Positions 11,164-30,772 of a DNA stretch of 64,000 bases are shown here, piece by piece. The translations under genes were made by a program, and so were the position numbers. Source of the stretch: Phycisphaerales bacterium. GTDB taxonomy: Bacteria; Planctomycetota; Phycisphaerae; Phycisphaerales; SM1A02. The notes beneath the pieces were generated by a model, which saw only the letters and a program-made list of their open reading frames with translations, did no database searches and was not told the DNA's origin. Position 1 is the first letter of the stretch. Each line of letters opens with the position of its first letter. The DNA lies in NCBI GenBank assembly GCA_022446885.1, contig JAKVBU010000013.1:1-64000 (forward strand), given 5' to 3'.

Positions 11164-11425
11164 GGTTCCCAGCGCACTCCCGGCCCGGTCGTCCCGACGT
11201 CAATCACCTATTGCACCGGACAAGTGGCAAATGCTCCTAACCCTGACGCAGCCGGTGCGCCCTGCTTGAGCGTGCTCATTCTACCTCACAGCCCGGCGCC
11301 AGTCCTGCTGGATCAGTGGATCGATCCCCTATCCCAAAGTCGTATAGTGTCGCCCCTGAGTATCGAGTTGACTCGAATTCTGGAGCAGACTGGCCTGCCC
11401 CTGATCCAGCCAGGCACATAGACCA

Positions 11426-14806: not shown

Positions 14807-15710
14807 GTTGATCTCCCTTAGTGAAACAATTGGCAGGAAGTTCACTTCCATCTACTGTCGTGACATCGGTCAGGAGCAGCCCTCGATCAGCGCATCGTAC
14901 TAGCGGGCAACGGGACCCACTACGCGACTCGATCGCGGCAACTTGACCAACCACCCCGCCATCAGCCTCCATAGAGCAGACCTGACTGGACCAAACTGAG
15001 AGCCGAGTGCCCCGCAAGGTGCTCCACGCACCTGGATATGGCCTTGTCGTCGCGCGGATCAAGGCGTCGATCTGGCCCGCCTCACAGTTCCAATCGATCT
15101 TCCCGTCGTCCGGACACCGCCGCCGAAATGGCGGCTCAGCCGATGGTTCCTGCGGCCGCGTATCCACTCGGCCCGCCTCCAGATCGGCCAGCCAACACTG
15201 CACAAGCTCCAGATTCGACGACTCCACCCGCTCATAGACACTGGCAACCGTGTCCTGATCACCCAATGGAAACAGAGATTGACCAATCACGTCCCCGCCG
15301 TCCAGTCGGCTCGACAGCCGCATGAGCGTATTGCCCCATCTGGTCTCCCTGTTGATGATCGCCCAGTTGACAGGAGATCCCCCACGCCCACGAGGCAGCG
15401 GCGACGCATGTGCCCCCACTGCCCAGGGTGCCACGCTCAACGCCGTCGCGCCCAGTATCTGGCTCCATCCCAGCACGACAAGTGCATCCAATCTCAGCGA
15501 CTGGAGCCACTGAAGTGACTGGTCCGAGTTGATGTCTTGGGTTCGATGCACGGGCAGCCCAGGCACATTGGCCGGGTCCCAACCACCACTGCGGCAAGCG
15601 AGCGCTGCCTCCGACAGCGTCATGGCATGCACGTCATGGCCGGAGTTCTCGAACAGCCATTGCACCGTTGCTCTGGCCTCCACATGCGCTGCTGCAATTG
15701 CAATCTGCAT
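14799..15710 (-). CDS. formyltransferase-family protein (probable sugar N-formyltransferase)
   Basis: 303 aa with the Formyl_trans_N fold: HASPLPRGRGGSP at residues 101-113 carries the catalytic His101, and RLDGGDVIGQ carries the catalytic Asp (D137). A C-terminal domain similar to that of Fmt follows (RATTRPYPGAWSTLRGTRL). The position two before the His, normally Asn in Fmt and sugar formyltransferases, is Gly99 (VGAHAS). It uses N10-formyl-tetrahydrofolate to formylate an amine. It is unlikely to be the housekeeping Fmt, because it shares an operon with polysaccharide genes and is divergent, over 51 bp, from the DegT aminotransferase, which would make its 4-amino-sugar substrate. The sugar N-formyltransferase role is inferred from context. 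Confidence 0.78.
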   Translation of the reverse strand: MQIAIAAAHVEARATVQWLFENSGHDVHAMTLSEAALACRSGGWDPANVPGLPVHRTQDINSDQSLQWLQSLRLDALVVLGWSQILGATALSVAPWAVGAHASPLPRGRGGSPVNWAIINRETRWGNTLMRLSSRLDGGDVIGQSLFPLGDQDTVASVYERVESSNLELVQCWLADLEAGRVDTRPQEPSAEPPFRRRCPDDGKIDWNCEAGQIDALIRATTRPYPGAWSTLRGTRLSVWSSQVCSMEADGGVVGQVAAIESRSGSRCPLVRCADRGLLLTDVTTVDGSELPANCFTKGDQLV

Positions 15711-15761
15711 CGGGCCATTCTATCCGCGATCTCGCCACGGCCCGCCCGGTACGATCCGCCC

Positions 15762-16916
15762 ATGCAGGTCCCCTTCTTCAGGCTTGACGTCACAGATGAC
15801 ATGCGCTCAGCGGCAGACGAAGTCATCGCCTCCGGGTGGCTCACAAGCGGCCCAAAGGTGCAGGCCTTCGAAGCAGCCTTTGCCCAGGCCACTGGCGCTC
15901 GACATGCCGTCGCCGTGAACTCCTGCACAGCCGCGCTGCATCTGGCCCTCGAGGCCCTGGGCGTGGGCCCGGGAGATCGAGTGCTTGTGCCGACCATGAC
16001 CTTCGCCGCTACCGCCGAGGTGGTGCGGTATCTGGGCGCCGATCCGGTTCTTGCCGATGTCTGCCCTGAGACGGCATTGCTCACACCAGAAGTCGTCGAG
16101 TCTGCGCTCGCTCGAGACCCCGACATCAGCGTGTGCATGCCGGTGCACTTCGGTGGGCTCCCATGCGACATGCAGGCCATTGGCGACATATGCCGTGCAC
16201 ATGACGTGCGAATTGTGGATGACGCCGCCCACGCACTCCCGGCCGCCGACACGGGCGGCCCTGTAGGCACGCTCGCTGATGCAACCTGCTTTTCCTTCTA
16301 CGCCAACAAGACGCTTACCACCGGCGAGGGGGGCATGCTGGTCACCGATGATGATGCCATCGCAGCCCGAGCTCGGGTCATGCGGCTGCACGGCATGAAC
16401 CGCGATGCGTGGGGCCGCTTCACGGTTGACACGGCACGCTGGGAGTACGACCTCGTCGCCCCGGGCTACAAATACAACATGCCCGACATCGCTGCGGCTC
16501 TCGGGCTCTCGCAATTGGACCGCCGCCACTGTGACCGCGACGCCCGAGGGGCCATCGCCACCGCCTATGACGAAGCGCTTGGCGATCTGCCAAACCTGCG
16601 ACGGTGCGGCAGGCGGACAGCAGCTTCGGTTGAACACGCTTGGCATCTCTACTGGATCGTGCTCGAGCCTGATGCACCGATCAACCGCAATGCCTGCATC
16701 GATGCGCTGCAAGCCCTTGGTGTGTCATGTTCGGTGCACTACAAGCCACTGCACCGGATGACGTATTGGATCGAGCAACTCGATTGCACCCCGGAGCAGT
16801 TTCCCGGAGCCGAGGCGATCTGGCGCGGCTGCTTCTCTCTGCCGATATTCCCGGCTCTGACGTCGTCAGAACAAGGCCACGTCATCGATTCGCTACATCA
16901 GGTGCTGCAGGGCTGA
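15762..16916 (+). CDS. DegT/DnrJ/EryC1 PLP aminotransferase (PglE/WbpE-like)
   Basis: 384 aa from the ATG at 15762 (the frame is open upstream, but that part is antisense to the formyltransferase). Family motifs: MQVPFFRLDVTDDM, SGWLTSGPKVQAFEAAFA, NSCTAALHLALEALGVGPGD, VPTMTFAATAEVVRYLGA, VDDAAHAL and the PLP lysine K183 in FYANKTLTTGEGG. These sugar aminotransferases convert a 4-keto-6-deoxy-UDP-HexNAc to the 4-amino sugar using Glu. The next gene is a WbpM/PglF-type dehydratase that would make the keto sugar, and the divergent gene is a formyltransferase, so the product is most likely UDP-4-amino-4,6-dideoxy-HexNAc. Very clear family call. Confidence 0.92.
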   Translation: MQVPFFRLDVTDDMRSAADEVIASGWLTSGPKVQAFEAAFAQATGARHAVAVNSCTAALHLALEALGVGPGDRVLVPTMTFAATAEVVRYLGADPVLADVCPETALLTPEVVESALARDPDISVCMPVHFGGLPCDMQAIGDICRAHDVRIVDDAAHALPAADTGGPVGTLADATCFSFYANKTLTTGEGGMLVTDDDAIAARARVMRLHGMNRDAWGRFTVDTARWEYDLVAPGYKYNMPDIAAALGLSQLDRRHCDRDARGAIATAYDEALGDLPNLRRCGRRTAASVEHAWHLYWIVLEPDAPINRNACIDALQALGVSCSVHYKPLHRMTYWIEQLDCTPEQFPGAEAIWRGCFSLPIFPALTSSEQGHVIDSLHQVLQG

Positions 16917-16990
16917 GTGTCGGGGCTATACTCACCCCCGCTGACCATCCACAGGACTACACACACCCTGTCTGGAGCCCGGGGGGATCG

Positions 16991-19018
16991 ATGACTATCC
17001 GACGACGCATTCAACGACTCGACCACGGCACGCGCCGAAGGCTGCTGAGCCTTCCCCGCTGGGCCAAACTCGGCTGCATGGTGGCCTTCGATCTGGTTGC
17101 CATTGCCCTCGCTCTCACCTTGGCGGTGTTGCTGCGGCACAGCGATCAACCGCTGCCTGACCTTGTCGAACAGTGGTGGTGGCTCTGGGTCACGGTGCCT
17201 CCCGCCGCGGTGCCAATCTTTGTGGGTTGCGGCCTGTATCGACAGGTCATTCGGTACATCGGCGCCCGTGCAGCCATGCAGATCCTCGTGGGCGTCGCCG
17301 CACTGGCGCTTGTGATTCCCGCAACGGCCCTGCTGGCTGACTACGTGACCATGTTCCGGGCGGCGGTGATGGTCAACTTCTTTGTCATCGCCTGCGCCTT
17401 CATCGGTGCGAGCCGTTTCGCAATGCGATCGTGGTTCGGTACCGGTCGATCACGTAAAGCCGATCGCGTCGTGGTGTGGGGTGCGGGCTATGCCGGCGTT
17501 CAATTGGCGCAGGCCCTGCACGCCCATCGCCGCTGGACGCCCGTCGCATTTGTCGATGACGATCGGAAACTCTGGGGGCGCATCGTCAATCGCCTGCCGT
17601 GCATCAGCCCCGATCGTCTTGCCTCACTGACCAAACGCAGGCAAGTAGGGACGATCATTCTGGCTCTGCCATCAGCCTCACGACAGCAGCGGCGGCGCAT
17701 ACTGGACCGCCTCGAGCCCTTGGGTCTGTCGATCAAGACGGTGCCCGGCATTGTGGAGATTCTCTCGGGCCGTGGTTCCGAGAGCGAGGTCCGTGAGGTG
17801 TCAATCTCTGACCTGCTCGGCCGCAATCCCATTCCGGCCCACGAGAGCCTGCTGCGACGCAACATCGAGGCGAAGACGGTGTTGGTGACAGGAGCGGGTG
17901 GGTCGATCGGCAGTGAGTTGTGCCGCCAAATCCTGGCTCTGAGCCCCAAGCGGCTCATTCTGCTGGAACGAAGCGAGTTTGCGCTCTACAGCATCGACCG
18001 GGAACTGCGGCAGAGGTTGGTATTGGAGACTGGCGCCGCCGGCGAAGTCGAACTGATCTCCCTGCTGGGCTCGGCAGGTGATCAGGCACTGGTGGAACGG
18101 CTCTTTTCCACCTGGCCGGTTGACACTGTCTATCACGCAGCCGCCCACAAGCATGTGCCCATCGTCGAAGAAAATGTGCCCGAGGGCATCGCCAACAATA
18201 CGCTTGCCACTTGGACCACCGCTACCGCTGCGCTCAAACACCATGTCTCGACCTTCGTGCTGATCTCGACCGACAAGGCGGTGCGGCCGACCAACGTCAT
18301 GGGTGCATCCAAGCGCATGGCCGAAATGGTGCTCCAGGGGCTCATGGGGACGCAGCGTGATACCTCAACTACCCGATTCTCCATGGTTCGATTCGGCAAT
18401 GTCCTTGGCTCCAGTGGAAGCGTCATTCCCCTGTTTCGCGAGCAGATTCGAATGGGTGGCCCCGTCACCGTCACGCATCCAAAGATCACCCGGTTCTTCA
18501 TGACCGTGGAAGAGGCTGTACAGCTGGTCATCCAGGCCGGCTCAATGGCTGAGGGCGGCGAGGTCCACCTGCTGGACATGGGAGAGCCGGTCCCGATTCT
18601 GGATCTCGCTCGCCGCATGATCCAACTTTCGGGCCACACGATTCGCGATGAGCACAACCCTGATGGCTCGATTGCCATTGAGTACACCGGCCTGCGTCCG
18701 GGCGAAAAGCTTTATGAAGAGTTGCTCATCAGCGATGACGTGTGCGGCACGGTGCACCCACGCATCATGCGAGGTGACGAAGAGGCTCCACCATGGGAGC
18801 GAGTTGAGTCTTGGCTCATGGTGCTGCAGCAGGCTGTTGCCACCGGAGATTGCGCCGCCATCCGCAGCGTGCTGAACGAGGCCGTAGCCGGGTATGCTCC
18901 TGCCAACGAGATTCATGATGTGCAGTGGCGTCAGCGTCCGAAGCCACAATGGGATGACCCCGCACATCAGGCAGTTTCTGAGCCCAGGACCACTCAGCCC
19001 CATGGCCGAATCAACTGA
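16991..19018 (+). CDS. membrane-bound UDP-HexNAc 4,6-dehydratase (PglF/WbpM/CapD type)
   Basis: 675 aa from the ATG at 16991 (MTIRRRIQ). Four membrane helices occupy roughly residues 30-145. A CoA-binding-like Rossmann domain follows (VVVWGAGYAGVQLAQAL ... VAFVDDD), then the SDR dehydratase domain with VLVTGAGGSIGSELCRQI, DTVYHAAAHKHVPIVEEN, LISTDKAVRPTNVMGASKR and RFGNVLGSSGSVIPLF. As in this whole family, Met stands in the place of the SDR tyrosine (VMGASK). It converts UDP-GlcNAc to the 4-keto-6-deoxy sugar with retained C5 configuration, feeding the DegT aminotransferase 74 nt upstream. Both size and domain order match PglF/WbpM. The last 17 nt overlap the Wzz-like gene. Confidence 0.92.
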   Translation: MTIRRRIQRLDHGTRRRLLSLPRWAKLGCMVAFDLVAIALALTLAVLLRHSDQPLPDLVEQWWWLWVTVPPAAVPIFVGCGLYRQVIRYIGARAAMQILVGVAALALVIPATALLADYVTMFRAAVMVNFFVIACAFIGASRFAMRSWFGTGRSRKADRVVVWGAGYAGVQLAQALHAHRRWTPVAFVDDDRKLWGRIVNRLPCISPDRLASLTKRRQVGTIILALPSASRQQRRRILDRLEPLGLSIKTVPGIVEILSGRGSESEVREVSISDLLGRNPIPAHESLLRRNIEAKTVLVTGAGGSIGSELCRQILALSPKRLILLERSEFALYSIDRELRQRLVLETGAAGEVELISLLGSAGDQALVERLFSTWPVDTVYHAAAHKHVPIVEENVPEGIANNTLATWTTATAALKHHVSTFVLISTDKAVRPTNVMGASKRMAEMVLQGLMGTQRDTSTTRFSMVRFGNVLGSSGSVIPLFREQIRMGGPVTVTHPKITRFFMTVEEAVQLVIQAGSMAEGGEVHLLDMGEPVPILDLARRMIQLSGHTIRDEHNPDGSIAIEYTGLRPGEKLYEELLISDDVCGTVHPRIMRGDEEAPPWERVESWLMVLQQAVATGDCAAIRSVLNEAVAGYAPANEIHDVQWRQRPKPQWDDPAHQAVSEPRTTQPHGRIN

Positions 19019-20231
19019 CGTCACCCCACACGCTTCCCCATCCGCCCATGGGGCGTCTGACCGCCCCATCGTCTATCTGGTCAATGCCGAAGACGATGGC
19101 GGTCGTTCGGTGAACCTGCCGACCTTGCTGGCCCCGATCTGGAGATGGAGATGGGTTTCGGTGCTCATCATGTTGCTGGCCATCGCCGCGGCTGGATGGA
19201 AGGTGCTCGTGCCCGGATCCCTCCAGCAACAACTTGTGATTCGCCCTGGCGTTCTGACCCAGAGCTACGTGTTGGCCCAACTTGAGCACTCGATCATTCC
19301 GATTGCCAAGGCGAGCGTGGCCCCATGGCGTCCAGAGATTGAAGTGGAGGTTGATGACCTGAGTCTGGACTCAGAAGACGCGAACGCGGCCTCATCACTG
19401 GCAAATCTGCGGGACATTCTGGTCTCCTTTCGCTTTGATCATGCAAAGGCCGCAGATCAACTCACACAGGCGATCGAAGAAGGTCTGGCCGGTCTGAAAA
19501 GCATCTCAGAGGCCATGTCCAGCGTAAAGCGCGAACAGGTCCGTCTACGTCTCAGAGACAATCTTCGAATTGCGCAAGATGGACTGCAGCAGGTCACGAG
19601 CCCAGATTATGTGGCTGCGCTGCGGGGCCAGTCTGAAGCCGCCATCGCCACGTCCCAGGCCGCGATCGATCGAGAAGATGCCACCTTGGACTCCCTGATG
19701 GCTCGTCGCAGCGCGATCGAGTCACGGGCCCCTGTGCTGCAGAACCTGCTACAGGAATTGACCCAGTCCATGTCCCCGGAAGAGTCCAGCGACCCTGCTA
19801 TGGCCCAGATCCTCGCTGATCGTGTGGCAAGTCTGCGCCTGGAGTTGGAGACCGCCATACCTCGCGAACGACTCGAGCTCATTCAGAGCCAGAAGCAGGC
19901 CCAAGCTGACAAGGACAAGTGGTTCGCCACCCTCAGTGCCCAGCGTCTGAAGGCGGCCACATTTGAGAGTGACCTCCTAGCGCAACAGGCGGAGGCCACG
20001 CAAGCCGTGACTGCTGCGGAATCTGCGCTCAGCGAGTATGAGACCCGAATTCAGGCGCAGTTGGCAGATTCACCATTGACCATTGTGGGCGAGTATCAAG
20101 ACCGCGGAGACGGACTGCCAATGATTGCATGGGCGGCCGTCCTGTTGATCGCCGGCGTGATTTGCAGCCTGTGTGCCACCTTGGGGCTTGAAGCGCTGCG
20201 GCTGGCCCGCATGGGAGTTGAGCAGGGCTGA
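19002..20231 (+). CDS. Wzz-like polysaccharide co-polymerase (coiled-coil inner-membrane protein)
   Basis: 409 aa from the ATG at 19002, overlapping the dehydratase gene by 17 nt. A ~40-residue cytoplasmic N-terminus is followed by a membrane helix (VSVLIMLLAIAAAGW), a ~300-residue periplasmic region predicted to be mostly coiled coil (runs such as QSEAAIATSQAAIDREDATL), and a second membrane helix near the C-terminus (MIAWAAVLLIAGVICSLC). Helix, coiled coil, helix is the Wzz/PCP layout that controls chain length. There is no C-terminal tyrosine-kinase domain, and the Pro/Gly-rich motif before the second helix is weak (PLTIVGEYQDRGDGLP). A structural role in export is likely from position and topology; direct sequence similarity to Wzz is not obvious to me. 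Confidence 0.65.
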   Translation: MAESTDVTPHASPSAHGASDRPIVYLVNAEDDGGRSVNLPTLLAPIWRWRWVSVLIMLLAIAAAGWKVLVPGSLQQQLVIRPGVLTQSYVLAQLEHSIIPIAKASVAPWRPEIEVEVDDLSLDSEDANAASSLANLRDILVSFRFDHAKAADQLTQAIEEGLAGLKSISEAMSSVKREQVRLRLRDNLRIAQDGLQQVTSPDYVAALRGQSEAAIATSQAAIDREDATLDSLMARRSAIESRAPVLQNLLQELTQSMSPEESSDPAMAQILADRVASLRLELETAIPRERLELIQSQKQAQADKDKWFATLSAQRLKAATFESDLLAQQAEATQAVTAAESALSEYETRIQAQLADSPLTIVGEYQDRGDGLPMIAWAAVLLIAGVICSLCATLGLEALRLARMGVEQG

Positions 20232-20321
20232 GACAGACTGTGGCTGGTCCATCCGCGGTTGAGCACATGTGAGGGCGGATCGCCTCTCACCCACGAACCA
20301 ACACTCAAACACGGGCAAGAA

Positions 20322-20356
20322 ACAGTCCCCGGCAGGATGCGCCTGCCGGGGACTGT
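20322..20356. terminator. bidirectional hairpin terminator between convergent genes
   Basis: A perfect 15-bp inverted repeat (arms 20322-20336 and 20342-20356, loop of 5 nt) lies in the 169-bp gap between the Wzz-like gene and the convergent VCBS-like gene. The stem is GC-rich (core CCCCGGCAGG). There is no long T run on either side, so it would be an unusual intrinsic terminator, or a processing or stabilising hairpin for both 3' ends. Confidence 0.7.
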
Positions 20357-20400
20357 GCATGTTTGAGAGAGGACCCCCTCGTCAAGACACCGTCGCTGGA

Positions 20401-22152
20401 TCAGTTGTGTGGTCCCGTTGGTGCGTCGATCCTCCAACCAGGAATGGCGCCCGAATACAACCACTGAGAGGTGTAGTCATGGCCATTTGCATCCATGAAC
20501 CAGACGATCACGCTGCCATCGTCATCTCTCCAGACGACATCACTACGGCCATTGCCATCCATGTCACCCACGCCGGCGACAAACCAGAGTTCAGGAACCG
20601 GTGCGCCGGTAGCATGACCGTTGTAGACAAAGCTGGAATCGTATCCAAAGTCGGTCCCATCCCAGTTGACCCAACTGATCAAGGAACCCGCATAATCGCC
20701 AGCGCCTTCGTCCCCATATTCCCCCATCCAGAGTATGTCGCAGTTGCCGTCGCCGTTGAAGTCACCCAGTCCCCTGATGGACCAGCCTGGAATCGCACCG
20801 CTGTACAACCACTGAGAGGTGTAGTCATGGCCAGAGGCCTCCATGTACCAGACGATCACACTACCGTCACCATCTCTCCAGATGAGATCATCCCGACCGT
20901 CACCGTTCATGTCGCCAACGCCAGACACGATCCACTCCTCTGGAACCGGTGCGCCGGTAGCATCACCGTTGTACAGGAAGTTGGACGAATACCCGAAGTC
21001 AGTGCCGTCCCAATCGGTCCAGGTGATCAAGGAACCCGCATAGTCGCCAGCGCCATCGACCCCATAGTCCCCCATCCAGAGAATGTCGGCGTCGCCATCG
21101 CCGTTAAAATCACCTATCGCAGGAATAGACCAGCCTGGAATAGCGCCTGAATACAACCACTGACTGGTGTAATCATGACCGTTAGCATCCATGAACCACA
21201 CAATGACGCTGCCGTCACCATCTCGCCAGATGATGTCGTCACGACCATCGGAGTTCATGTCACCGGTACCGGCAACAAACCACTCTTCTGGAATAGTCGC
21301 GCCAGCATCAAGTCCGTCATAGACAAAGTGTGAATCGTAGCCCTGATCGGTCCCATCCCAGTTGACCCAACTGATCATGGATCCCTCGTAGACTCCAGCG
21401 CCGCCGGCACCGTACTCACCCCACCAGAGAATGTCGCTCTTGCCGTCTCCGTTGAAATCATTGGCTGCGTCATAGTCCTCAGGGGCGTCCGGCTCGGCCA
21501 CCTTGGAGAAACTTTGCCCGTCCGCCTCGACATTTTCGCCATCAGCGGCGTTGTTGTACATGTAGTTGATCGTGCCCGAAACCGTGGATCCAGACGCCAC
21601 CGTGAACTGACCGATGAACACCCGATTGTCAGTCGCGTCCCCTTGGCTGTCTTCGGGCGTGATGAACCAACCACCGCCCTCGGTGGCATCTATCGGCGCC
21701 AGCGCCCCGCCTGCATTGAATGTGGCCCAGTCCATTCCGGTCGTGATCAGCGCATCGGTTCCCGAATCGTTGTTGAGCAGACCAATGCTCACATAGCTGT
21801 CTGCCTGAGCAGACGGAAACGCTCCGATGATTGCCGTGGTACGAGTCATACTCGTGTCAGAACTGCCATTGGCAGAATGAAAAAACCCACTGGCATCATC
21901 GGTCGAGATCGACATGTTCGCTGCAGGCTTACCATTGACGATGATGAGCCGGTCAGATGGGTCGTCAAAGGTGATGTAGACGCTGACGCTAATCAACGTT
22001 CGCGGGTCTGTTGACGACCATCCAGACTGATCCACCTCGGTCACAACGTACTCAAAGCCCGTTGCCGCCCCCTGAGAGGCCGAAGCAATCCCCAATGCGC
22101 CGATGCATCCCAGCGCCGCCAGTCCTTGAAATCGATTTGCCTGTTGTGTCAT
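20401..22152 (-). CDS. secreted FG-GAP/VCBS-like triple-repeat protein with an unnamed N-terminal domain
   Basis: 583 aa from the ATG at 22152, with AGGAACAGGA just upstream as a ribosome site. The signal peptide is at ~1-30 (FQGLAALGCIGALGIASASQG). Residues ~35-215 form a beta-rich domain that recurs in the serine protease at 28373-30772. From residue 231 there are three 116-residue repeats, each opening DFNGDG.(S/A/C)DILW and holding a second calcium-like loop (GDMNGDGRDDLIWRDGDG), as in FG-GAP/VCBS propeller repeats. No membrane anchor or sorting tail is seen at the C-terminus (IPGWRIDAPTGPHN). Probably an exported surface or matrix protein with Ca-binding propeller blades; binding partner unknown. 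Confidence 0.8.
   Translation of the reverse strand: MTQQANRFQGLAALGCIGALGIASASQGAATGFEYVVTEVDQSGWSSTDPRTLISVSVYITFDDPSDRLIIVNGKPAANMSISTDDASGFFHSANGSSDTSMTRTTAIIGAFPSAQADSYVSIGLLNNDSGTDALITTGMDWATFNAGGALAPIDATEGGGWFITPEDSQGDATDNRVFIGQFTVASGSTVSGTINYMYNNAADGENVEADGQSFSKVAEPDAPEDYDAANDFNGDGKSDILWWGEYGAGGAGVYEGSMISWVNWDGTDQGYDSHFVYDGLDAGATIPEEWFVAGTGDMNSDGRDDIIWRDGDGSVIVWFMDANGHDYTSQWLYSGAIPGWSIPAIGDFNGDGDADILWMGDYGVDGAGDYAGSLITWTDWDGTDFGYSSNFLYNGDATGAPVPEEWIVSGVGDMNGDGRDDLIWRDGDGSVIVWYMEASGHDYTSQWLYSGAIPGWSIRGLGDFNGDGNCDILWMGEYGDEGAGDYAGSLISWVNWDGTDFGYDSSFVYNGHATGAPVPELWFVAGVGDMDGNGRSDVVWRDDDGSVIVWFMDANGHDYTSQWLYSGAIPGWRIDAPTGPHN
20404..21462 (-). repeat. three tandem 348-bp coding repeats in the VCBS-like gene
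   Basis: Repeat 1 covers 21115-21462, repeat 2 20767-21114 and repeat 3 20404-20766 (with a short tail). Each encodes 116 residues with the same spacing, and stretches such as SVIVW(F/Y)M and GHDYTSQWLYSGAIPGW are nearly identical in all three. The Trp and Asp positions are invariant. Confidence 0.9.
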
Positions 22153-22477
22153 GGTCCTGTTCCTGACCCTTACTGGCCCTCTCATAGGAGAGCTCATCTG
22201 TTGACCTGAGAAGAGATGCGTGACCATCAGTGGCCAGAATGGGCTCCGCGGGCCGGTCCTGCGAGTGCTTCTTCAATTCGGGCATGGCCCTACGTGGCCA
22301 GTACCCCTCACTACCAGATAGTACAGTAGCTTCCGTCTGTGAGAGCAAACCTCCTAATCGGCCCTAACGACCCCAAGATGAGCACAATTCACGGGTGCCA
22401 ATTGATATCCAGACCGGATAATTGGACTGCATGTCACCTCCGACCAAACTGCACCTCATCGACGTAGCAATCAGACC
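22153..22477. other. 325-bp divergent intergenic region, no gene seen
   Basis: This holds the upstream regions of two divergent secreted-protein genes. A ribosome site (AGGA) for the minus-strand gene is visible next to its start. CCAATT and AATTGG form a short inverted repeat around 22397-22426, and a few weak AT-rich boxes are present, but I could not place a convincing -35/-10 pair on either strand. Confidence 0.5.
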
Positions 22478-23746
22478 ATGCCCGCGATCCTGACTGTTGC
22501 CCTCGCCTGTGCAATGTGGGCCGCACCATCAGGCGGCCCCGCACCGATCTACGCGGCCCGTGACGCGGCCCGGATCATCGATCGACTCGGTCTGGAGGGT
22601 GCGCAAGATGGCCAAATCATCGAACTCTTACTCGTTGATTATGAGACGCAATGGGCCCAAGCGGCCGCGTCGCTCCGGTCGGACCTGACCAGTTTCAAGG
22701 ATGGGCCCACCAGCACGGCGTTGTCCGATCGGCTCATCGCTTTCAATCAAACTCAACTTGCACTGGCCAGCATCCTGCAGGAGCACATGGACCTTTTGCT
22801 CGAGCCCGAAGACCAGGCCAAGTGGACTCGCCTCCAGCATGAGTTGCTCATGGAGCGACGCCTGAAGTACGGGCAACTTGCAGGCGAGTCGCTTGATTTG
22901 CGCAGCATCACGCGTGACCTGGGTGCAGAGGTCGCCTCAGCTTCCACGATCGGTGCCTGGGAAGCAGATCTGGCCCATTTACTCCAGCGGCGAACTGCTT
23001 ACGACATCGGGGGCCCCAGCCGAGTCCAGGCGCTCATGCTGGCGGGGCAATTCAATGAAGCGCTTGAATGGATGCAGGGCTGGATCGACGCAAGGGTGGC
23101 GATTCGCGATGCGAACCTGAGCTACGTCAAACTTCTCCAGACAACCCTCCCTGCCCAACAGGCAGCGGCACTGGCCGATGTTGTTGAGCGGGCCACCCGG
23201 CTCCATGTCCGAGACGGCCGCGCTGTGGATGTGCTGGCGGCAGCTGTGGCCGCCGATCCATCCATCACCGAGGCAGTAAAGGCCGCTGTGGCCCGGACAC
23301 TTCAAGGCTACCAACAGCGCACTGAGCTCATTCACGAGCAACGTGAGGCCCTTGAGCGTCGGCTGGAACCCGAGATGCTGCTGGCGCCCATCCAACAACG
23401 GCTGGGCCGCGATGACGTGTTCAGGCGACTGAAACAAGAACAAGCCGACAACGAGGCGCGATTGAGCGCCCAGGGCGAGGCAACGATCGAGGCAATCTGC
23501 TCCCTGATCGGCGAGGCACACTGCCATCGGTTGCTGGAAGGAGTTGATGCAGTCAATCGAAGAGATCACCCTAGCGGTCTACCCGGCCCTGCTGCACCGC
23601 CCAGCGGCTCCCACTCTGACACTGACTCACCCTTGTCACCTCCGCAACCGAGCACACCTCCCGGTCCATTCTTGCCGGACACGCCAGACAGGCCAGAAGG
23701 TCCAGTAGCGCCCAATCCGCACCCGCCCATGCCACCGCCAGCCTGA
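22478..23746 (+). CDS. secreted helical protein with proline-rich C-terminus, function unknown
   Basis: 422 aa. A cleavable signal peptide is likely (MPAILTVALACAMWAAPSGG). The body (~35-345) is highly charged and helical, with long runs such as EHMDLLLEPEDQAKWTRLQ and AALERRLEPEMLLAPI-like heptads, and contains no cysteine-rich or catalytic motif that I recognise. The tail (~350-422) is Pro/Ser/Gly rich and ends PNPHPPMPPPA, a probable disordered linker or wall-spanning segment. The general make-up (EQRExLERRLEPEML, LEGVDAVNR) recalls periplasmic helical proteins that planctomycetes have in numbers. It stands alone between the VCBS-like gene (divergent) and the methyltransferase operon, 27 nt before the latter. 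Confidence 0.65.
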   Translation: MPAILTVALACAMWAAPSGGPAPIYAARDAARIIDRLGLEGAQDGQIIELLLVDYETQWAQAAASLRSDLTSFKDGPTSTALSDRLIAFNQTQLALASILQEHMDLLLEPEDQAKWTRLQHELLMERRLKYGQLAGESLDLRSITRDLGAEVASASTIGAWEADLAHLLQRRTAYDIGGPSRVQALMLAGQFNEALEWMQGWIDARVAIRDANLSYVKLLQTTLPAQQAAALADVVERATRLHVRDGRAVDVLAAAVAADPSITEAVKAAVARTLQGYQQRTELIHEQREALERRLEPEMLLAPIQQRLGRDDVFRRLKQEQADNEARLSAQGEATIEAICSLIGEAHCHRLLEGVDAVNRRDHPSGLPGPAAPPSGSHSDTDSPLSPPQPSTPPGPFLPDTPDRPEGPVAPNPHPPMPPPA

Positions 23747-23773
23747 GTTGAGCCTTCAAGTCACGTACCTATC

Positions 23774-24346
23774 ATGCCTGCCATGCTGTACCGACTGCTG
23801 GCGCTGTTTCACTGGCGACCAAGAGCCCTGGCTGTCAAACGTGCGTTGAGTTGCGTCAATGATGCCAAGCGGGTGGTTGACGTGGGCTGCGGTCCTGCTT
23901 GGCTTGCTCGAGTCGCCCGATCCTGCGATCTGGACTATCTAGGGGTTGACCCCTCTGTTCGACGTGCAAAGGGGATTGAGCGAGGCCAGGTGGAGCCAGG
24001 CGACGCTGAATCAGTCATTGGGCAATTGCACAGGTTGGACATCGTCGTGCTCAATGGCGTGGCCCATCATCTGCCAAACCAAACGCTTGCGGCGCTGCTG
24101 AATGCTGCCGAGGCCTGCAAGGCACTGGTCATCTGCGATCACCGGTCCGAGCCTCAAAACCACTCGGTGTGCCGTACCCTCCAACGATTGGATCGCGGGC
24201 AGTACATTCGTCCACGGTCATTCTTCGAAACGCTTGCTGGATGGACGCTCATACGCATGGAGCCATTTGAGATTTGCGTTCTGGGTCTGCCCGTCTGGTC
24301 CTACTTCACGGCGATCTATCAGCCAACTGGAGCCCCACGTGACTGA
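23774..24346 (+). CDS. class I SAM-dependent methyltransferase-like protein
   Basis: 190 aa. Motif I reads VVDVGCGPAWLARVA, motif II is LDYLGVDPS, and the post-II region has DIVVLNGVAHHLP, matching small Methyltransf_11/12 domains. The start at 23774 is one of two close ATGs (the second at 23783). Its stop overlaps the GTG of the GT2 gene by 8 nt (GTGACTGA), and the operon continues with two further methyltransferases. The C-terminal segment IRMEPFEICVLGLPVWSYF resembles the end of methyltransferases linked to lipid-carrier glycosyltransferases. Substrate unknown. Confidence 0.78.
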   Translation: MPAMLYRLLALFHWRPRALAVKRALSCVNDAKRVVDVGCGPAWLARVARSCDLDYLGVDPSVRRAKGIERGQVEPGDAESVIGQLHRLDIVVLNGVAHHLPNQTLAALLNAAEACKALVICDHRSEPQNHSVCRTLQRLDRGQYIRPRSFFETLAGWTLIRMEPFEICVLGLPVWSYFTAIYQPTGAPRD

Positions 24347-25289
24347 GGCATGCATCATTGTTGTGCCAGTGTTCAACGAGGCCGCCAGCATCGATCAACT
24401 GTTGCAACGGACGGCCGCTGTCAGCCCCGGTGGGTGGACGATGGTCGTGGTCGATGATGGAAGCAGCGACGAGACCATCGAGCGGCTTTCTGCCGAGGCG
24501 GCCCACATTGATCCCGCCAAAATGCAGATCCAGTTGATCCAGCTCAGTCGAAACTTCGGGCATCAACGGGCCCTGATGGCCGGGCTGGATGTGGCACTGC
24601 GACTCGCAGATGAACGTGATGTAGATCGGATCGCAATCATCGACGCCGATTTGCAGGACCGCCCAGAAGACATACCAGACCTGCTCGAAGCCACGGCCGA
24701 GTGTGACGTGGCTTATGCCGTCAGAGCGTCGCGCCGTGAATCGGCCTTGTTCCAGATGGCAGCATCGGTCTTCTATCGCCTGCTTGCCCGGTGGGCCCGC
24801 AGCCCGGTACCACCCAATGCCGGCACGTTCTCAGTGCTGAATCTGCCAGCAGCCACCGCCATCCTCCGCAACGCAGATGAAAACGTCTTCTTTCCTGGGC
24901 TACGAGCCTGGGTTGGGTTCAAGCAGATCGCGGTGCCCTTGCAGCGAGACGCTCGAGGCGACGGACACTCTCGTGTTGGCATCAAGGGGCTTGTCAGGCT
25001 GGCCGTCGGCGCCCTGTTTGGCTATTCACGCCTGCCGCTGTATCTGATGATGTGCATCAGCGCTACAGCCCTTGTGCTGTCCGTAGTCGCAACCATCGTC
25101 ATGTCGATCCTGAAACTGACCGGCCAGGTCGCGGTAGAGGGCATTCCGCTGCTGGTCGTGCTGATCTTCTTCAGCCTGAGCGTACTTGCGGTGTTCCTCA
25201 CAATTCTCGCCTACATGGTCAGCCGTAACCCGGCGCCTGTTCAATCTCGCGAGCTCTATGTGATCGCCCACGAGACGAGCCTGAATTGA
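24339..25289 (+). CDS. GT2 polyprenyl-phosphate glycosyltransferase (DPM1/GtrB/ArnC-like)
   Basis: 316 aa from the GTG at 24339. The GT-A domain starts CIIVVPVFNEAASIDQLL; MVVVDDGSSDETIE, LSRNFGHQRALMAGLDVAL and the metal-binding IIDADLQDRPEDIP with the DxD-type acidic cluster follow. Two C-terminal membrane helices (LPLYLMMCISATALVLSVV and IPLLVVLIFFSLSVLAVFL) are as in GtrB/ArnC. It should transfer a sugar from a nucleotide donor to undecaprenyl phosphate on the cytoplasmic side, for later use in side-chain glycosylation. It is coupled by overlap to methyltransferase genes on both sides (8 nt and a 4-nt TTGA), so the sugar or acceptor is probably methylated. Confidence 0.9.
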   Translation: MTEACIIVVPVFNEAASIDQLLQRTAAVSPGGWTMVVVDDGSSDETIERLSAEAAHIDPAKMQIQLIQLSRNFGHQRALMAGLDVALRLADERDVDRIAIIDADLQDRPEDIPDLLEATAECDVAYAVRASRRESALFQMAASVFYRLLARWARSPVPPNAGTFSVLNLPAATAILRNADENVFFPGLRAWVGFKQIAVPLQRDARGDGHSRVGIKGLVRLAVGALFGYSRLPLYLMMCISATALVLSVVATIVMSILKLTGQVAVEGIPLLVVLIFFSLSVLAVFLTILAYMVSRNPAPVQSRELYVIAHETSLN

Positions 25290-25960
25290 CGCCCCCCACC
25301 CTCTATCGGGATCCGGAAGCCCACGGCTATCTCGATCAGCCCATCGATGATCCGCACCAACAGGCGATTGTTGACGCAGTCCTGCATGAAGCTGGTGTCT
25401 CAGCGGGGGACTGTGTCCTGGAAGTGGGCGCTGGAACGGGTCGCTATACGAGGCTGCTGCTGCAACGAGAACTCCGCGTCATCGCAGCAGAGCCTGATGA
25501 AACGCTGCGGGGCAGACTGGTCCAGCAGGTTGGCGAAACATGCAGGATTTCCGCTTCCGATGCCGCTGCAGTGATACCTGATGAAGTCGATGCCGTGGTT
25601 GGATTCCATGTGCTGCATCATCTCGACCGAGCGGCGCTCGATGGTCTTCAAACCCGATTGATGCGTGCAGCCAGCCAACGCTCATGGAAGGGCGCCGCCT
25701 TCCTCGAACCCAATCCCCTCAATCTGCTGTACCTGCCACAGATCATCCTGACCAGTGGCATGCGGCTTCGTGAGGAAGCGCGGCTTTGGGCACCTCGCTT
25801 TTACGGACGAGCAGTGGGTCGCCTGCATGTGCCCTGCCACGTCGGCCTCGTGCCCCCAGGTGTTGCTCGCCGCACTCGCCTCTCTCCCAAGCGGCCTTGC
25901 CGAGTCCCAGGTCGATGGTGTCCGTGGTCTGCCTACCGGGTCGTGGCGCAGCGAAGATGA
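25286..25960 (+). CDS. class I SAM-dependent methyltransferase
   Basis: 224 aa from a TTG that overlaps the GT2 stop (TTGA). Motif I is VLEVGAGTGRYTRLLLQ, motif II VIAAEPDETL, and VVGFHVLHHLD follows, all in the normal order. FLEPNPLNLLYLPQIIL in the C-terminal half is the signature of the branch found beside polyprenyl glycosyltransferases. The last 50 residues are rich in Arg and Pro, and I checked whether a frameshift occurs, but the end (AYRVVAQR) fits the usual final beta strand, so the frame appears intact. The stop overlaps the next start by 4 nt (ATGA). Substrate unknown. Confidence 0.8.
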   Translation: MTPPTLYRDPEAHGYLDQPIDDPHQQAIVDAVLHEAGVSAGDCVLEVGAGTGRYTRLLLQRELRVIAAEPDETLRGRLVQQVGETCRISASDAAAVIPDEVDAVVGFHVLHHLDRAALDGLQTRLMRAASQRSWKGAAFLEPNPLNLLYLPQIILTSGMRLREEARLWAPRFYGRAVGRLHVPCHVGLVPPGVARRTRLSPKRPCRVPGRWCPWSAYRVVAQRR

Positions 25961-26748
25961 ACATGCATCGAGCGCATTACGACACGCTGGCTGACCATGA
26001 CCAGCACTACTGGTGGTTTCAGACTCGCCACCGTCTGGCTCGCCGGCTCCTGGGCCTAGGCAGGCGATTCGACGGCAAACTCCTTGATGTAGGTTGCGGC
26101 GCAGGTGGCTTTCTGGCCAGTTGCCTCGATGCGGGCGTCCCCCGGGAGCGGACGCACGGGCTCGACATCGACCCTGAGAGCGTGCAGCGAGCGAGTGATC
26201 GCGGCTTGCAAGTTGGCACGATGGGGCCAAGCGGACCGGATGAAACAGACCTCCCCTTCACCCCCGATGTCATCACGATGCTCGATGTGCTTGAGCACAT
26301 TGAGGCGCCCGCCCAGTTCTTGCAGGCACTCCACCGAGTTGCGGCACCCGGCTGTCGGATTCTGATTCTGGTCCCCGCCCACCGCTGGCTCTGGTCTCCG
26401 TGGGACGATCGCCTCGGCCACAAACGCCGCTATGACCGGCGCACGCTCCGAGATCACCTGCTTCAAGGCAGGTGGACTCTCCAGCACCAGAGATACATCT
26501 TCCCCTCGATGGTCCTGCCGGGCTTGATTCGTGCTCGGCTGCTTCGATCCAATCGGCTCCCCAAAGACGAATTCCCCCGTGTTCCCAAATGGGCCAACGC
26601 CCTGCTGCGAATTGGAACGAGCTTGGGCGCCAGATTCCCTGTGTGGCCTGTAGGAACCTCGCTTGCAGCCCTCGCCCTCAAGTGCAGCGACCGAAGCGAT
26701 CCAGCAGCACCAGCAGATCCAGCAGACCCACCTGCAGATCCTCGTTGA
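25957..26748 (+). CDS. class I SAM-dependent methyltransferase
   Basis: 263 aa from the ATG at 25957 (MNMHRAHYDTLADHDQHYWWF). The N-terminus with the HYWWFQTRH motif, motif I (LLDVGCGAGGFLASCLDAG), VITMLDVLEHIEAPAQFL and the H..LWSPWDDRLGHKRRY segment mark the Methyltransf_23 branch linked to cell-surface glycan loci. The C-terminal ~20 residues are a low-complexity Asp/Ala/Pro run (DPAAPADPADPPADPR). This comes from reading antisense into the dockerin-like tail of the convergent metalloprotease gene, which it overlaps by 71 nt. That tail is probably not functional. Fourth and last gene of the operon. Confidence 0.85.
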   Translation: MNMHRAHYDTLADHDQHYWWFQTRHRLARRLLGLGRRFDGKLLDVGCGAGGFLASCLDAGVPRERTHGLDIDPESVQRASDRGLQVGTMGPSGPDETDLPFTPDVITMLDVLEHIEAPAQFLQALHRVAAPGCRILILVPAHRWLWSPWDDRLGHKRRYDRRTLRDHLLQGRWTLQHQRYIFPSMVLPGLIRARLLRSNRLPKDEFPRVPKWANALLRIGTSLGARFPVWPVGTSLAALALKCSDRSDPAAPADPADPPADPR

Positions 26749-28132
26749 TGTCGGCCCCGTGGCCGCCCGAGACCACTCCCCAGGCACCCAGCATCTGAAT
26801 CAAATCCAGCATGTCGACCTCGCCCGAGGCATCGACATCGCCAGGGCAGTCCAATGGAATCAGGCTCGCTCGATATCCGGCAGTGACCGGCGCCCGGTCG
26901 TTCCAAACCCGCACGTTGTCCGCCTCGACGGCGTCACCGACCGCTGTGCCATCGTGGTCCAGATCAGGCGTTGAGAACAACCCGATTCGCTGCGTCCACA
27001 CAAACTCGCTGTCACCCTCATCAGGGCAGTCGTCAATCTCATCGAGCCCACCGTAAGCCATCACCGTGCACCAACGATCATCATCGCACGAGTCATCGGC
27101 GCCCCAGAACACCCAGCCATAGGCATGGGGTTCAATGCCGGACACACCGGCATTTGCAGCATCATGAGCGCACCCGTGCAGATGCCCCATCTCATGAATC
27201 AGGGTGTACCCGGTGGCGGCGCAGGTCGTCTGAATGACAGCGCAGGCTGATGAGGGCGACCCACCAGCTGACTTGATCACGTACGCCCTGCCGCAGTAGT
27301 CGTTGACGCCATTGCCGTCTTCGTCTGTTGAATTGACGAACAACACCATGACATCGGCCCCCAGCCCGTTGCGCAGACCATGGGCCTCGTCGAACACCCC
27401 GTCGGCTGTGGCCCGAAACTGCGCCAACAAGTCTCCACTCTCAGCGCCCTCGACAAGCTCCATGCCCACCACCCGCAACTGGGTGTTGATGCCGCTGTCC
27501 GACAGTGTCACATTGCCCGCGTCGAACCAGGAGAGCACATTGGTCTCAAGGTCATGGGGCGAATCGAAGTCGGCCAAAGCGGCTGTGGTGTACATCGCCA
27601 GCACGTCAATGATCGCCCCGTCATCACCAGCGCCATCCCGCGCCGGTGGCCCACCAGCACCCGACGCACGCCAACGCGTCAGTGCTGGCACATCACCCGC
27701 TTGCCCATGAGCATGGCCATGGGGCAGGCTGCCACAGGGGCACATGGCATCCACGACCGGCTCGCCCAGTTGCCAAGTGAGACGACCATCCACCCCACCC
27801 CGAAAGGCAACCACGTCCCCCGTCTCAGTCGTGATACGGCCAGCGACATGCCCCTGATGGCGTCGCACGATCAACGTGCCGCCGCCATCCAAAGGTGCTC
27901 GCGTCACACCGGTCGCTTCCAGCCCCAGAATCGCTTCCTGCGCAAGTTCAAAGCGGCCCAACCCGGTCAGTTCGACCGCCTGCAGCACCCCTAGCGGGCC
28001 ATCAATCGACAATACGCCGCCCCCCTGCATTGGCGCTGGAAGCCCCCCAATCGGGCTTGAGATCGCGCCCAGCAGCATGCCCAACATCAGCATGAGCGGA
28101 GCATACGATCCATCAACCGCCCTCGCCGACAC
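26678..28132 (-). CDS. secreted zinc metalloprotease (reprolysin-like) with dockerin-like tail
   Basis: 484 aa from a GTG at 28132, or ~471 from an ATG at 28093; either gives a hydrophobic leader (MLMLGMLLGAIS). A propeptide-like region runs to ~residue 165. The catalytic domain then has the long zinc motif HEMGHLHGCAHD (His313, Glu314, His317, His323) and a Met-turn (CTVMAYG), placing it with metzincins. Cys residues around the site suggest disulfides and therefore an extracellular location. The last ~60 residues hold two calcium-loop/helix units (GDVDASGEVDMLDLIQML and ADINEDLQVGLLDLLVLLDR), similar to dockerin or EF-hand repeats common in Phycisphaerae exoproteins. Divergent from the serine protease gene over 240 bp. 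Substrate unknown. Confidence 0.85.
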   Translation of the reverse strand: MSARAVDGSYAPLMLMLGMLLGAISSPIGGLPAPMQGGGVLSIDGPLGVLQAVELTGLGRFELAQEAILGLEATGVTRAPLDGGGTLIVRRHQGHVAGRITTETGDVVAFRGGVDGRLTWQLGEPVVDAMCPCGSLPHGHAHGQAGDVPALTRWRASGAGGPPARDGAGDDGAIIDVLAMYTTAALADFDSPHDLETNVLSWFDAGNVTLSDSGINTQLRVVGMELVEGAESGDLLAQFRATADGVFDEAHGLRNGLGADVMVLFVNSTDEDGNGVNDYCGRAYVIKSAGGSPSSACAVIQTTCAATGYTLIHEMGHLHGCAHDAANAGVSGIEPHAYGWVFWGADDSCDDDRWCTVMAYGGLDEIDDCPDEGDSEFVWTQRIGLFSTPDLDHDGTAVGDAVEADNVRVWNDRAPVTAGYRASLIPLDCPGDVDASGEVDMLDLIQMLGAWGVVSGGHGADINEDLQVGLLDLLVLLDRFGRCT

Positions 28133-28372
28133 TCAAATCAACATTGGATCCGGGAATTGAGCCCCTCAGTGCTGATTTCGGGGGATCTCGATGGCTCTGG
28201 GGCTCGAATCGTGCAATGCTCTGTAGTGCCCGATGCCATTGGCCGAGCAGTCTGAAGGAGACTGCCTGACGGGCCCCAATCAAGTTTTTGCGGCTCCAAT
28301 CCCACGCCTCGGGATGATAAGGGCCAATCAGACCGCCCCGGAATCGATCCGACTCGAGAGGACCTGTAGATC

Positions 28373-30772
28373 ATGAAACTGGCCACCCACGCGTGCCTCA
28401 CCCTCGCTCTAACCACTGTTGCATCAACCATCGCTGCAGGCGAGGCCCTGCCCCCGAGTTGGAGCGCATCGCAATCTGCTCTCGAAGCGATTCCAACATA
28501 CGAGGTGGCCGGCCCGGACTACGCCGCACTGTGGGAAGAAGACAACCAGCGAGCTTCAATGGGCCAGCCCTGGCGATTCGCGGTGCCCACCAAAGCCGCC
28601 ATCACAGCCGCAACCTCCGGCGCATGGAACCTGACCCCTGAAGGACGATTGCTCTGGCAGGTGCGAATCGTGGCCCGCGATGCCATGCATCTGAACTTCG
28701 GATTCGAACACTGGGCCCTTCCTCCCTCAGCACGTGTCTGGCTCTCCAGCGCCCGTGGCGATCATGTTCGTGGCCCATGGGACCAGTCCACCAATGACAC
28801 GCACGGCGAGTTCTGGACCCCATTCGTGTGGGGCGACGACGTCATCATTGAAATCGAGGTGGACATCGCCGAGCGTCACTTGATCGAACAGGATGTCCAG
28901 TTGACCTGGATCAACGTAGGCTACCGTGGATTCGATCCACCAGATCTCCCTGACCAACGCGGCTCTTCTGAGTCCTGCAATGTAGACGTGATGTGCCCAC
29001 TGGGAGATAACTGGTGGGACGAAATCCCATCGGTCGGCGTCTACTCGCTTTCGGGGTACTGGACCTGCACCGGCGCATTGATCAACAACACGCTGCAGGA
29101 CGAACGCATGCTCTTCCTCACCGCCGATCACTGCGGGATCAACACCGGCAACGACCAGACCATGGTCGTGTACTGGAATCACCAGAATTCCACCTGTCGC
29201 ACCGGAAGTGCCAGCGGCAACAACGGCAATGGTCATTACAACGACTACAGCAGCGGCGTGACCTGGAAAGTAGATGCCTCCTCTACCGATTGCTGCCTGG
29301 TCGAAATCAACAGTGACCCCAATGACAGTTGGGAGTTGACTTGGTCAGGCTGGAATCGAAGTTCCAGCACACCCAGTGAAGGTGTGAGCATTCACCACCC
29401 GGCAACTGCTGAAAAGCGAATCTCCAGCGTAGAGGACATCTATTCCTACAACGCTTGGGGATACAACTTCTGGCGCGTCAACTGGGATCAGGGCCGCACG
29501 GCCGGCGGGTCGTCCGGTTCCCCATTGTTCGACGGCAACAATCGAATCATCGGGCAACTCTACGGCGGTTGGTCCTACTGCACCAATGACGACGACGACG
29601 TCTATGGCCGCTCACTCTCGGTCAGTTGGAATTCGCTCAAGCCCTATCTCGATCCGAACAACAGCAACGCGACCACCCTCGACTCGTGGAATCCCACCGC
29701 AAATGAGGGCGCCTGCTGCCTCGTCGGCGGCCAGTGCATCGTTGGCCCCGAGAGCGCCTGCGATACCGTCGGCGGGACGTACAACGGGAACGGCTCCGAT
29801 TGCAGCGATGTCGACTGTGATGAACCCGACGAAACGGGCGCCTGCTGCGTCGGCACGACCTGCATCGACAATCTCACCAGCACCGTCTGCTACTCCGGCG
29901 GCGGCGACTATCAGGGCGATGGCTCCAACTGCAGCAGTACTGACTGCGGCGATGATCCCCCCGGTGACATCGTGATCAAGTCAGTCATTTCTGCTCAGGA
30001 TGCTGTCGATGGCGTCACCAACGACTGGACGGTTGATCTTTACGCCGTAGTCGACGACGGCTGGCGAATTGACGCGGTTGCCGGCACCGAGTCGCAGCCC
30101 AAGACGATCTCGTGCAGCACGTCGTTCTACCAGCACCAGTTCGGTGGGCCCACGTCCATGGACATCAATCCAAATCTCTACGGCGCTTTCCCGAACCTGC
30201 CCCACGACTCTCGCGTGACGATCGGCGCCCTGGACGCCAGTGGTGATCCGTTCCCCGCCAATGAGCTGCAGAACATCAATATCGACTGGACCACCTTTGA
30301 GAACGGTGGAGACCTGTCGGTGACAAACGGCACTTGGTTCATCCTCCCCTCTGAGGATCAGGGTGAAGCCCGCGAGTTTGTCAGTGGTGACTGCGACACG
30401 CAGCACGGCGTGCTCATTGCCCGCCTGACCGCGATCGGGCACAACGCCACCGTCACCTTCGACGGCCTGCTGCAAGGTCGCGACGCATCCAATGAACCGT
30501 GGCAACAGGTTGCCTCATCAACCATCACGTGGTCCCAAACAAATGACTGCAACGCCAATGGTGTTCCAGATTCATGTGACATCGCCAACGGCACGTCCGA
30601 AGATGCCAATGGAGACGGTGTGCCGGATGAGTGCAACACCTGCCCGGGCGATCTTGATGGTTCCGGCACCGTGGACGTGGACGACATCCTGGCCTGCATC
30701 GCCGGATTCGGCACCGACTACACAGTGGACGACATCCTTACGGTGCTGGCCAACTTCGGCAACGACTGCTGA
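28373..30772 (+). CDS. secreted trypsin-like serine protease with multi-domain C-terminus
   Basis: 799 aa. Signal peptide at 1-22 (LTLALTTVASTIAAGEA). The protease domain is at about residues 195-430: catalytic His253 in LTADHCG, Asp306 in SSTDCCL and Ser381 in GGSSGSPLF, the layout of lysyl-endopeptidase-like S1 enzymes, with paired cysteines. Two GACC cysteine-rich repeats (~446-526) follow, then a ~190-residue domain (532-722) shared with the VCBS-like protein of this window. It ends with a calcium-binding linker (CNANGVPDSCDI, DANGDGVPDEC) and a dockerin-like tail (PGDLDGSGTVDVDDILACI) up to the end. It should be exported, cut amino-acid chains outside the cell and be retained on a surface or complex by its C-terminal domains. 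Confidence 0.87.
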   Translation: MKLATHACLTLALTTVASTIAAGEALPPSWSASQSALEAIPTYEVAGPDYAALWEEDNQRASMGQPWRFAVPTKAAITAATSGAWNLTPEGRLLWQVRIVARDAMHLNFGFEHWALPPSARVWLSSARGDHVRGPWDQSTNDTHGEFWTPFVWGDDVIIEIEVDIAERHLIEQDVQLTWINVGYRGFDPPDLPDQRGSSESCNVDVMCPLGDNWWDEIPSVGVYSLSGYWTCTGALINNTLQDERMLFLTADHCGINTGNDQTMVVYWNHQNSTCRTGSASGNNGNGHYNDYSSGVTWKVDASSTDCCLVEINSDPNDSWELTWSGWNRSSSTPSEGVSIHHPATAEKRISSVEDIYSYNAWGYNFWRVNWDQGRTAGGSSGSPLFDGNNRIIGQLYGGWSYCTNDDDDVYGRSLSVSWNSLKPYLDPNNSNATTLDSWNPTANEGACCLVGGQCIVGPESACDTVGGTYNGNGSDCSDVDCDEPDETGACCVGTTCIDNLTSTVCYSGGGDYQGDGSNCSSTDCGDDPPGDIVIKSVISAQDAVDGVTNDWTVDLYAVVDDGWRIDAVAGTESQPKTISCSTSFYQHQFGGPTSMDINPNLYGAFPNLPHDSRVTIGALDASGDPFPANELQNINIDWTTFENGGDLSVTNGTWFILPSEDQGEAREFVSGDCDTQHGVLIARLTAIGHNATVTFDGLLQGRDASNEPWQQVASSTITWSQTNDCNANGVPDSCDIANGTSEDANGDGVPDECNTCPGDLDGSGTVDVDDILACIAGFGTDYTVDDILTVLANFGNDC
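29708..29950 (+). repeat. two tandem GACC-type cysteine-rich repeats
   Basis: Two ~40-residue units inside the serine protease gene, each GACC...C(I).....C....G(G)..(Y)....G(S).C....C. They sit between the protease domain and the unnamed domain. Even spacing of six cysteines suggests three disulfides per unit. Similar units occur in many Phycisphaerae exoproteins. Confidence 0.75.

Follow-up and report, generated by a model that had tools for sequence, protein, structure and literature searches.

Two secreted proteins encoded in the window, the whole 64,000-nucleotide stretch of Phycisphaerales DNA that was analysed, share a genuine protein module of approximately 190–205 residues. The module is best regarded as a new domain family among extracellular accessory modules, whose role is most likely binding. 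Our reading, held with moderate confidence, is that it forms one family of extracellular, non-catalytic β-sandwich binding modules with a choice of anchor. It is a many-copy module that spans ocean bacteria of two phyla, with 17 copies in a single 2.87 Mb Phycisphaerales genome. As it is unnamed in Pfam and NCBIfam, its carriers can be annotated by their other parts alone. A name would annotate part of the secretomes of ocean bacteria with small genomes, would relate secreted peptidases and nucleases to stand-alone surface proteins, and would make the retention of enzymes near such bacteria a testable question.

Identification of the shared module

The two carrier genes lie at the locations given in the original prediction. 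Their features are the following:

20401..22227 (−): gene of an FG-GAP/VCBS-like secreted protein, 608 aa, with a signal-peptide-like N-terminus (by eye)
20416..21468 (−): FG-GAP propeller-type repeats, approximately residues 254–604 of the VCBS-like protein (FG-GAP_3, E 3.8e-20; FG-GAP, E 3.6e-15)
21478..22077 (−): module copy 1, residues 51–250 of the 608 of the VCBS-like protein (BLASTP, Smith–Waterman, hhalign)
28373..30772 (+): gene of a trypsin-like secreted protease, 799 aa, the carrier of copy 2
29066..29554 (+): trypsin-like domain with TADHC and GGSSGSP motifs (Trypsin_2, E 4.7e-5, 24.6 bits at a cut-off of 27.6)
29708..29947 (+): two GACC repeats directly N-terminal of copy 2 (from the sequence; no Pfam match to them in the protease)
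29945..30562 (+): module copy 2, residues 525–730 of 799, in the C-terminal part of the protease (BLASTP, Smith–Waterman, AF2 pLDDT 92.8)
30545..30769 (+): DxNxNG linker and dockerin-like tail of the protease (motif by eye alone)

The likely start of the VCBS-like protein is M26 (22152), which reproduces the residue numbering used in the original prediction. The Pfam and NCBIfam scan of this protein gave no PEP-CTERM or dockerin match, and no known anchor was found in it. The Pfam scan of the window protease gave nothing for Dockerin_1 at E 5. The cysteine-containing GACC repeats are unnamed and also precede the module in several relatives.

The claim that both proteins share one segment was borne out by three comparisons. 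BLASTP aligned residues 80–265 of the VCBS-like protein with residues 553–752 of the protease at 29% identity over 208 columns (E 5e-10). The Smith–Waterman alignment of residues 51–250 with residues 529–730 scored 129, which corresponds to a z of 14.3 against 2000 shuffles (mean 37.0, sd 6.4, maximum 73). Using the protease copy and four paralogues as the query, hhalign matched the VCBS segment with a probability of 97.7% and an E-value of 2.1e-12 over 125 columns; the profile comparison of the two segments, named beforehand as a possible refutation, was thus significant. The alignment had been described as extending over the length of the segments. Similarity is clear as far as the region of the QG motif, whereas the last strands resemble each other weakly; the end of the BLASTP alignment, at approximately residues 245–265, is a calcium-loop-like sequence lying beyond the module. 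The proposed landmarks are all present in the proposed order in both copies, but GAFP is not general across the family. The near-invariant core of the family consists of DS.VTIG, the stretch F.Q..GG..S..N, F..GG and G.W....P...QG. With the A1 profile, built from 15 copies of the genome to which the window belongs, copy 1 gave an E-value of 2.3e-56, though it is itself one of the 15 rows.

Database searches

No Pfam or NCBIfam model covers the module in the two window proteins or in 24 members from two phyla, and the 15 copies of A1, which include both window copies, gave no match over the curated cut-off. This agrees with the earlier view that the module belongs to no named family. The best weak Pfam match over the module was to BigA_beta (E 0.045, 14 bits versus a cut-off of 24.3 bits). 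Matches in the PDB sequence library were at chance level (best E 0.67). Spread by viruses found no support in two scans of viral contigs, which returned no relative. Among open-licence PMC texts, no paper was found whose title or abstract start describes the module.

NCBI annotation includes "choice-of-anchor" families of extracellular domains. The module resembles them in that one extracellular domain is joined to different sorting tails, and differs in that no NCBIfam model matches the module family.

Copies in the own genome

The genome of the window (2.87 Mb, 108 contigs) contains 17 module sites, two of which are the window pair; the copies were assigned to classes from their frames by eye. 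Seven are whole stand-alone proteins (on C15, C22, C28, C29 and C32, and two on C45), each of which begins like a signal peptide and ends in a PAPGALALLG...RRRR type of tail. One further copy, on C22, is cut by the contig end. Seven copies lie in larger proteins, namely the window protease, two carriers on C87 (one metalloprotease-type and one subtilisin-type), one on C24, two on C12 and one on C58, the last of which is cut by the contig end. A dockerin-like tail was recognised by eye at the end of all six larger proteins that are not cut. C12 also encodes a protein of 296 aa made up of the module and a dockerin-like tail alone, and the remaining copy is that of the VCBS-like protein. Within this one genome, identity to the first copy is 27–51%.

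The genomes G001, G006 and G009 each carry three stand-alone copies in the same gene neighbourhood. On one flank lies a MiaB-like gene with MurG-like neighbours, and on the other a gene for a TPR protein with Rho-, PsuG-, DEAD-helicase- and alanine-racemase-like genes; these names were given by eye, without a family search. The flanks differ in G020. The own genome has both flanks of G001, G006 and G009, at the starts of C22 and C29, and its 5.4 kb C45 carries two copies. Because of the shared flanks and the two copies on C45, the loci on C29, C22 and C45 (L144, L145 and L023) are probably parts of a single tandem array that the assembly has broken over three contigs. The conserved core surroundings of the stand-alone arrays suggest vertical inheritance.

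Distribution in two phyla

The A1 profile matches 13 of 41 related genomes, including all three of the own genus. In a sample of 298 genomes from the class it matches 16, the own genome included. With the A5 profile (59 rows, 44 of which make up A6), eight of 392 genomes drawn from the phylum gave a match; three of these belong to f57, a planctomycete family outside the class, with best E-values of 1e-33 to 1e-50. The scan of named genomes yielded 58 loci, 57 in Planctomycetota MAGs, mostly Phycisphaerales or Phycisphaerae, and one in the Flavobacteriales MAG M30B41. This list is incomplete, since the scan used one short conserved pattern. Of its loci, 57 were analysed; L054 was excluded from A5 as an apparent copy of L053, judged from the same length and match position and not from a comparison of the sequences.

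M30B41 contains 14 module matches. In its order, 153 of 399 genomes match, approximately 103 of them with a best E-value below 1e-20, where strong and weak groups were counted by hand. Nine or ten matches each were obtained in approximately 95 of the 153, with about nine candidates scored per genome. A profile of Flavobacteriales members alone matches A1 with an E-value of 1.2e-41. The assignment of the module to "this clade" in the original prediction therefore holds for the many Phycisphaerae members and is too narrow, as the module is common in the order of M30B41 and also present in f57. On a tree of 118 rows, the Flavobacteriales copies need four changes, and a single clade fits better (p-AU 0.657). 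The simplest reading of this compatibility with one clade is a single old event, an exchange or a split, after which the copies expanded separately. In approximately 50 of the 153 genomes the best E-values were no better than 1e-10 to 1e-18, and many of these genomes have about seven matches; these weak matches may represent a related but different domain.

Domain architectures and tails

The module occurs N-terminally, C-terminally, doubled or alone, and its partners are unrelated to each other, as expected of the mobile element that had been proposed. Among the 57 named relatives analysed, 19 are stand-alone PEP-type proteins. The full-length Pfam scan covered 37 of the 38 non-PEP relatives (L082, whose frame contains long masked stretches, was omitted) and detected an M12 peptidase in 15, Trypsin_2 in five, S8 in one, Dockerin_1 in six (E 1e-3) and a T9SS tail in one. 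The peptidase counts were taken from Pfam because the M12 motif search missed cases. In most of the peptidase carriers examined, the module lies near the C-terminus. G022 encodes a protein with the module, a dockerin-like part and FG-GAP repeats, the module and the repeats being in the same order as in the window protein, and a second protein with CBM96, a dockerin-like part, the module and another dockerin-like part; the dockerin matches in both are below cut-off. In the f57 proteins L124, L125 and L126, the module is followed by another kind of C-terminal region, which is conserved, has no Pfam match and looks like a further sorting or anchoring domain.

In M30B41, the first module begins less than 80 residues from the frame start in 13 of 13 frames. 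In other genomes of the order it is also C-terminal or doubled, and one open frame combines it with Endonuclease I (E 1.3e-32). The Flavobacteriales proteins L183–L192 and L197–L208 have GCTD.xAxNY...DDGSC repeats alongside the module.

PEP-CTERM-like, dockerin-like, T9SS (Por_Secre_tail) and other tails accompany the module, and the combination of the module with a dockerin-like tail in one polypeptide is found in both phyla. Tails of the P.P...hydrophobic...RRR type were recognised by eye in the seven stand-alone copies of the own genome. The Pfam PEP-CTERM matches were below cut-off throughout, with two of 15 copies at best E 0.37 and two other proteins at 0.005–0.0084. Exosortase is encoded in 41 of 41 genomes, with one in the own genome (E 4.6e-43). 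A tree of 72 rows sets 41 multi-domain rows apart (SH-aLRT 97), and carriers with S1 and with M12 partners are intermixed on it. The VCBS copy forms a long branch close to the PEP-type proteins, so its placement is unsure. In the BLAST clustering of N-terminal parts, the short PEP-type proteins L086 and L097 were grouped with M12, probably wrongly.

Predicted structure and conservation

For the protease copy, AF2 predicted a β-sandwich with high confidence (59 sequences; pLDDT 92.8, pTM 0.88), in which long strands at 10–57 and 152–195 surround a confident middle with short strands alone. The model of the VCBS copy (pLDDT 71.5) shows a closely similar order of elements. The common β fold that had been anticipated is thus predicted for both copies, although the second model is no independent proof of it, because its alignment contains other copies.

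Foldseek gave no match in the PDB at E 1e-3. With VIA-align, the N2 domains of Als adhesins rank first for both models (Z 6.4). These Candida domains and staphylococcal MSCRAMM domains form the top structural rows for both models and are likewise extracellular; the module differs from them in that its models stay below Z 8, share 8–9% identity in those rows and have a best PDB sequence match at E 0.67. Cohesins reach Z 4.9–6.1 with the protease model and up to 5.7 with the VCBS model, and by title they account for 25 of 50 and 22 of 50 listed rows, respectively. Among the families in the VIA lists, no row reached Z 8 for either model. As all Z values are below 8 and Foldseek found nothing, the likeness in fold is maybe a mere common arrangement. 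Mean conservation is higher at residues 58–150 than in the rest (2.84 versus 2.22, p 0.0005). Strands 27–46 are as conserved as this region, so a recognition face is not clearly singled out.

Relation to cohesins and dockerins

At E 0.01, the search of the own genome gave 39 matches to Dockerin_1, of which 27 exceed the cut-off, and none to a Pfam cohesin, which leaves these dockerins without a known partner. Pfam cohesin (PF00963) also gave no match in the 15 own copies or the 24 members from two phyla at the thresholds applied. Comparison of the module profile with 25 Phycisphaerae cohesins gave a probability of 0.2% and an E-value of 0.28, and the Flavobacteriales members gave 0.5 against the cohesin profile, while two halves of the cohesin set, used as a positive control, matched each other at 1.6e-25. 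Homology of the module to cohesins was therefore rejected. The two may be alike in their β-sandwich arrangement (Z up to 6.1 over 126–137 residues), and they share secretion and the occurrence with dockerin-like parts. The module differs in the lack of profile similarity, in its length of approximately 205 residues, in its long conserved middle and in having no phyletic link to dockerins.

Dockerins are present in 40 of 41 relatives, with or without the module, versus 13 for the module. Across the 41 genomes the copy numbers show no correlation (Spearman 0.15 at p 0.35, and −0.002 at p 0.99 within the family), where the dockerin counts of rich genomes are lower bounds. Coupling of the module to dockerin number was rejected on this ground. 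No conserved calcium-loop motif was seen within the module; such motifs occur in the neighbouring FG-GAP and dockerin-like parts. Together with the missing link to dockerin number in the 41 genomes, this leaves the suggested calcium-dependent assembly unsupported.

Proposed function

We infer that attachment is the most likely role of the module. What can be read from the sequences directly is that the carriers have signal-peptide-like starts, that the module stands alone or beside unrelated partners (trypsin-like, M12 and S8 peptidases, endonuclease I, FG-GAP repeats and CBM96), that several sorting tails are used and that copies are many. We propose that the conserved middle (model residues 58–150) would form a recognition face beside a sandwich of the cohesin/adhesin type. 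Exosortase would bring stand-alone copies to the surface, and copies borne by enzymes would retain these peptidases and nucleases beside the cell, its matrix or a particle. Candidate ligand classes would be surface polysaccharide, matrix protein or other. The binding reading is supported because the module is kept while its partners differ (15 M12, five Trypsin_2, one S8, and Endonuclease I), because stand-alone PEP-type proteins exist (seven in the own genome, 19 of the 57 relatives) alongside exosortase in all 41 genomes, and because the module tree mixes carriers with S1 and with M12 partners. It is further supported by the first-ranked structural rows, adhesins and cohesins being binding folds, and by the higher conservation of residues 58–150. 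The VCBS-like protein, without an anchor known to Pfam or NCBIfam, speaks against it.

Up to 17 copies per genome, tandem stand-alone genes in the same neighbourhood in several genera and doubled modules in Flavobacteriales proteins would also suit a structural lattice, in which module copies bind each other to build a surface or matrix layer with enzyme-borne copies woven into it. The wide divergence of the copies within one genome argues against such a layer, which we regard as unlikely. A role in secretion, sorting or as a pro-domain, by which the module would guide the export or maturation of enzymes and nothing more, appears improbable. The carriers are of the secreted type, and the position near the C-terminus in most peptidases examined is in line with it, but many proteins have no recognisable domain besides the module, others carry it at the N-terminus, and separate tails, including the PEP-CTERM-like and T9SS ones, occur together with it. 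That the module is itself an enzyme is very improbable. The almost invariant polar residues D88, S89, N75, N106 and Q139 could be taken in its favour; however, the module is attached to complete hydrolases of different kinds, its models resemble binding folds, and an unsystematic look recognised no catalytic set.

A more specific form of binding would follow if the module were a cohesin-shaped receptor, unrelated to cohesins in sequence, with surface copies that hold the dockerin-like tails of secreted peptidases and nucleases on the surfaces of marine Phycisphaerales and Flavobacteriales. For freshwater Phycisphaerae, a cohesin–dockerin peptidase complex with M12B peptidases, the "planctosome", has been proposed in the excerpted text of PMC6461901. 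The likeness lies in the class Phycisphaerae and in M12B peptidases that carry dockerins and are presumed to be tethered extracellularly; the difference is that the planctosome depends on cohesins, while Pfam finds none in the own genome, and that the module is not mentioned in that excerpt. The receptor, in effect a planctosome without cohesins, is favoured by this published proposal, by the share of cohesins among the listed structural rows, by the 39 Dockerin_1 matches in a genome without a Pfam cohesin, and by the union of module and dockerin-like tail in one polypeptide in both phyla. The profile comparisons were negative while the control worked, dockerins are far more widespread than the module among the relatives, and the counts are uncorrelated; we hold the receptor to be a doubtful candidate with little chance of being correct. 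If true, such a cohesin stand-in would mean an extracellular degradation complex without cohesins, common to two phyla. The family of binding modules with a choice of anchor remains our preferred reading.

Gene neighbourhood of the window copies

According to Pfam, a surface-polysaccharide locus (7844–25289) adjoins copy 1. Its genes encode a Wzy_C ligase, an asparagine synthase, glycosyltransferases, a sulfotransferase, a DegT aminotransferase and Polysacc_synt_2. Work on another bacterium credits one of its PEP-CTERM proteins with promoting floc formation and bound exopolysaccharide (PMC9850573). The polysaccharide genes beside copy 1 and this PEP-CTERM role would circumstantially fit the binding reading; against it stands that proximity to polysaccharide genes was seen for two of 17 copies, in a survey that covered those two. 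Between both module genes lies a further gene (26678–28132, minus strand), which encodes a secreted M12-type metzincin with a dockerin-like tail and without the module (Reprolysin_5, E 6e-11; NCBIfam Mep72, E 7e-18 but far below cut-off).
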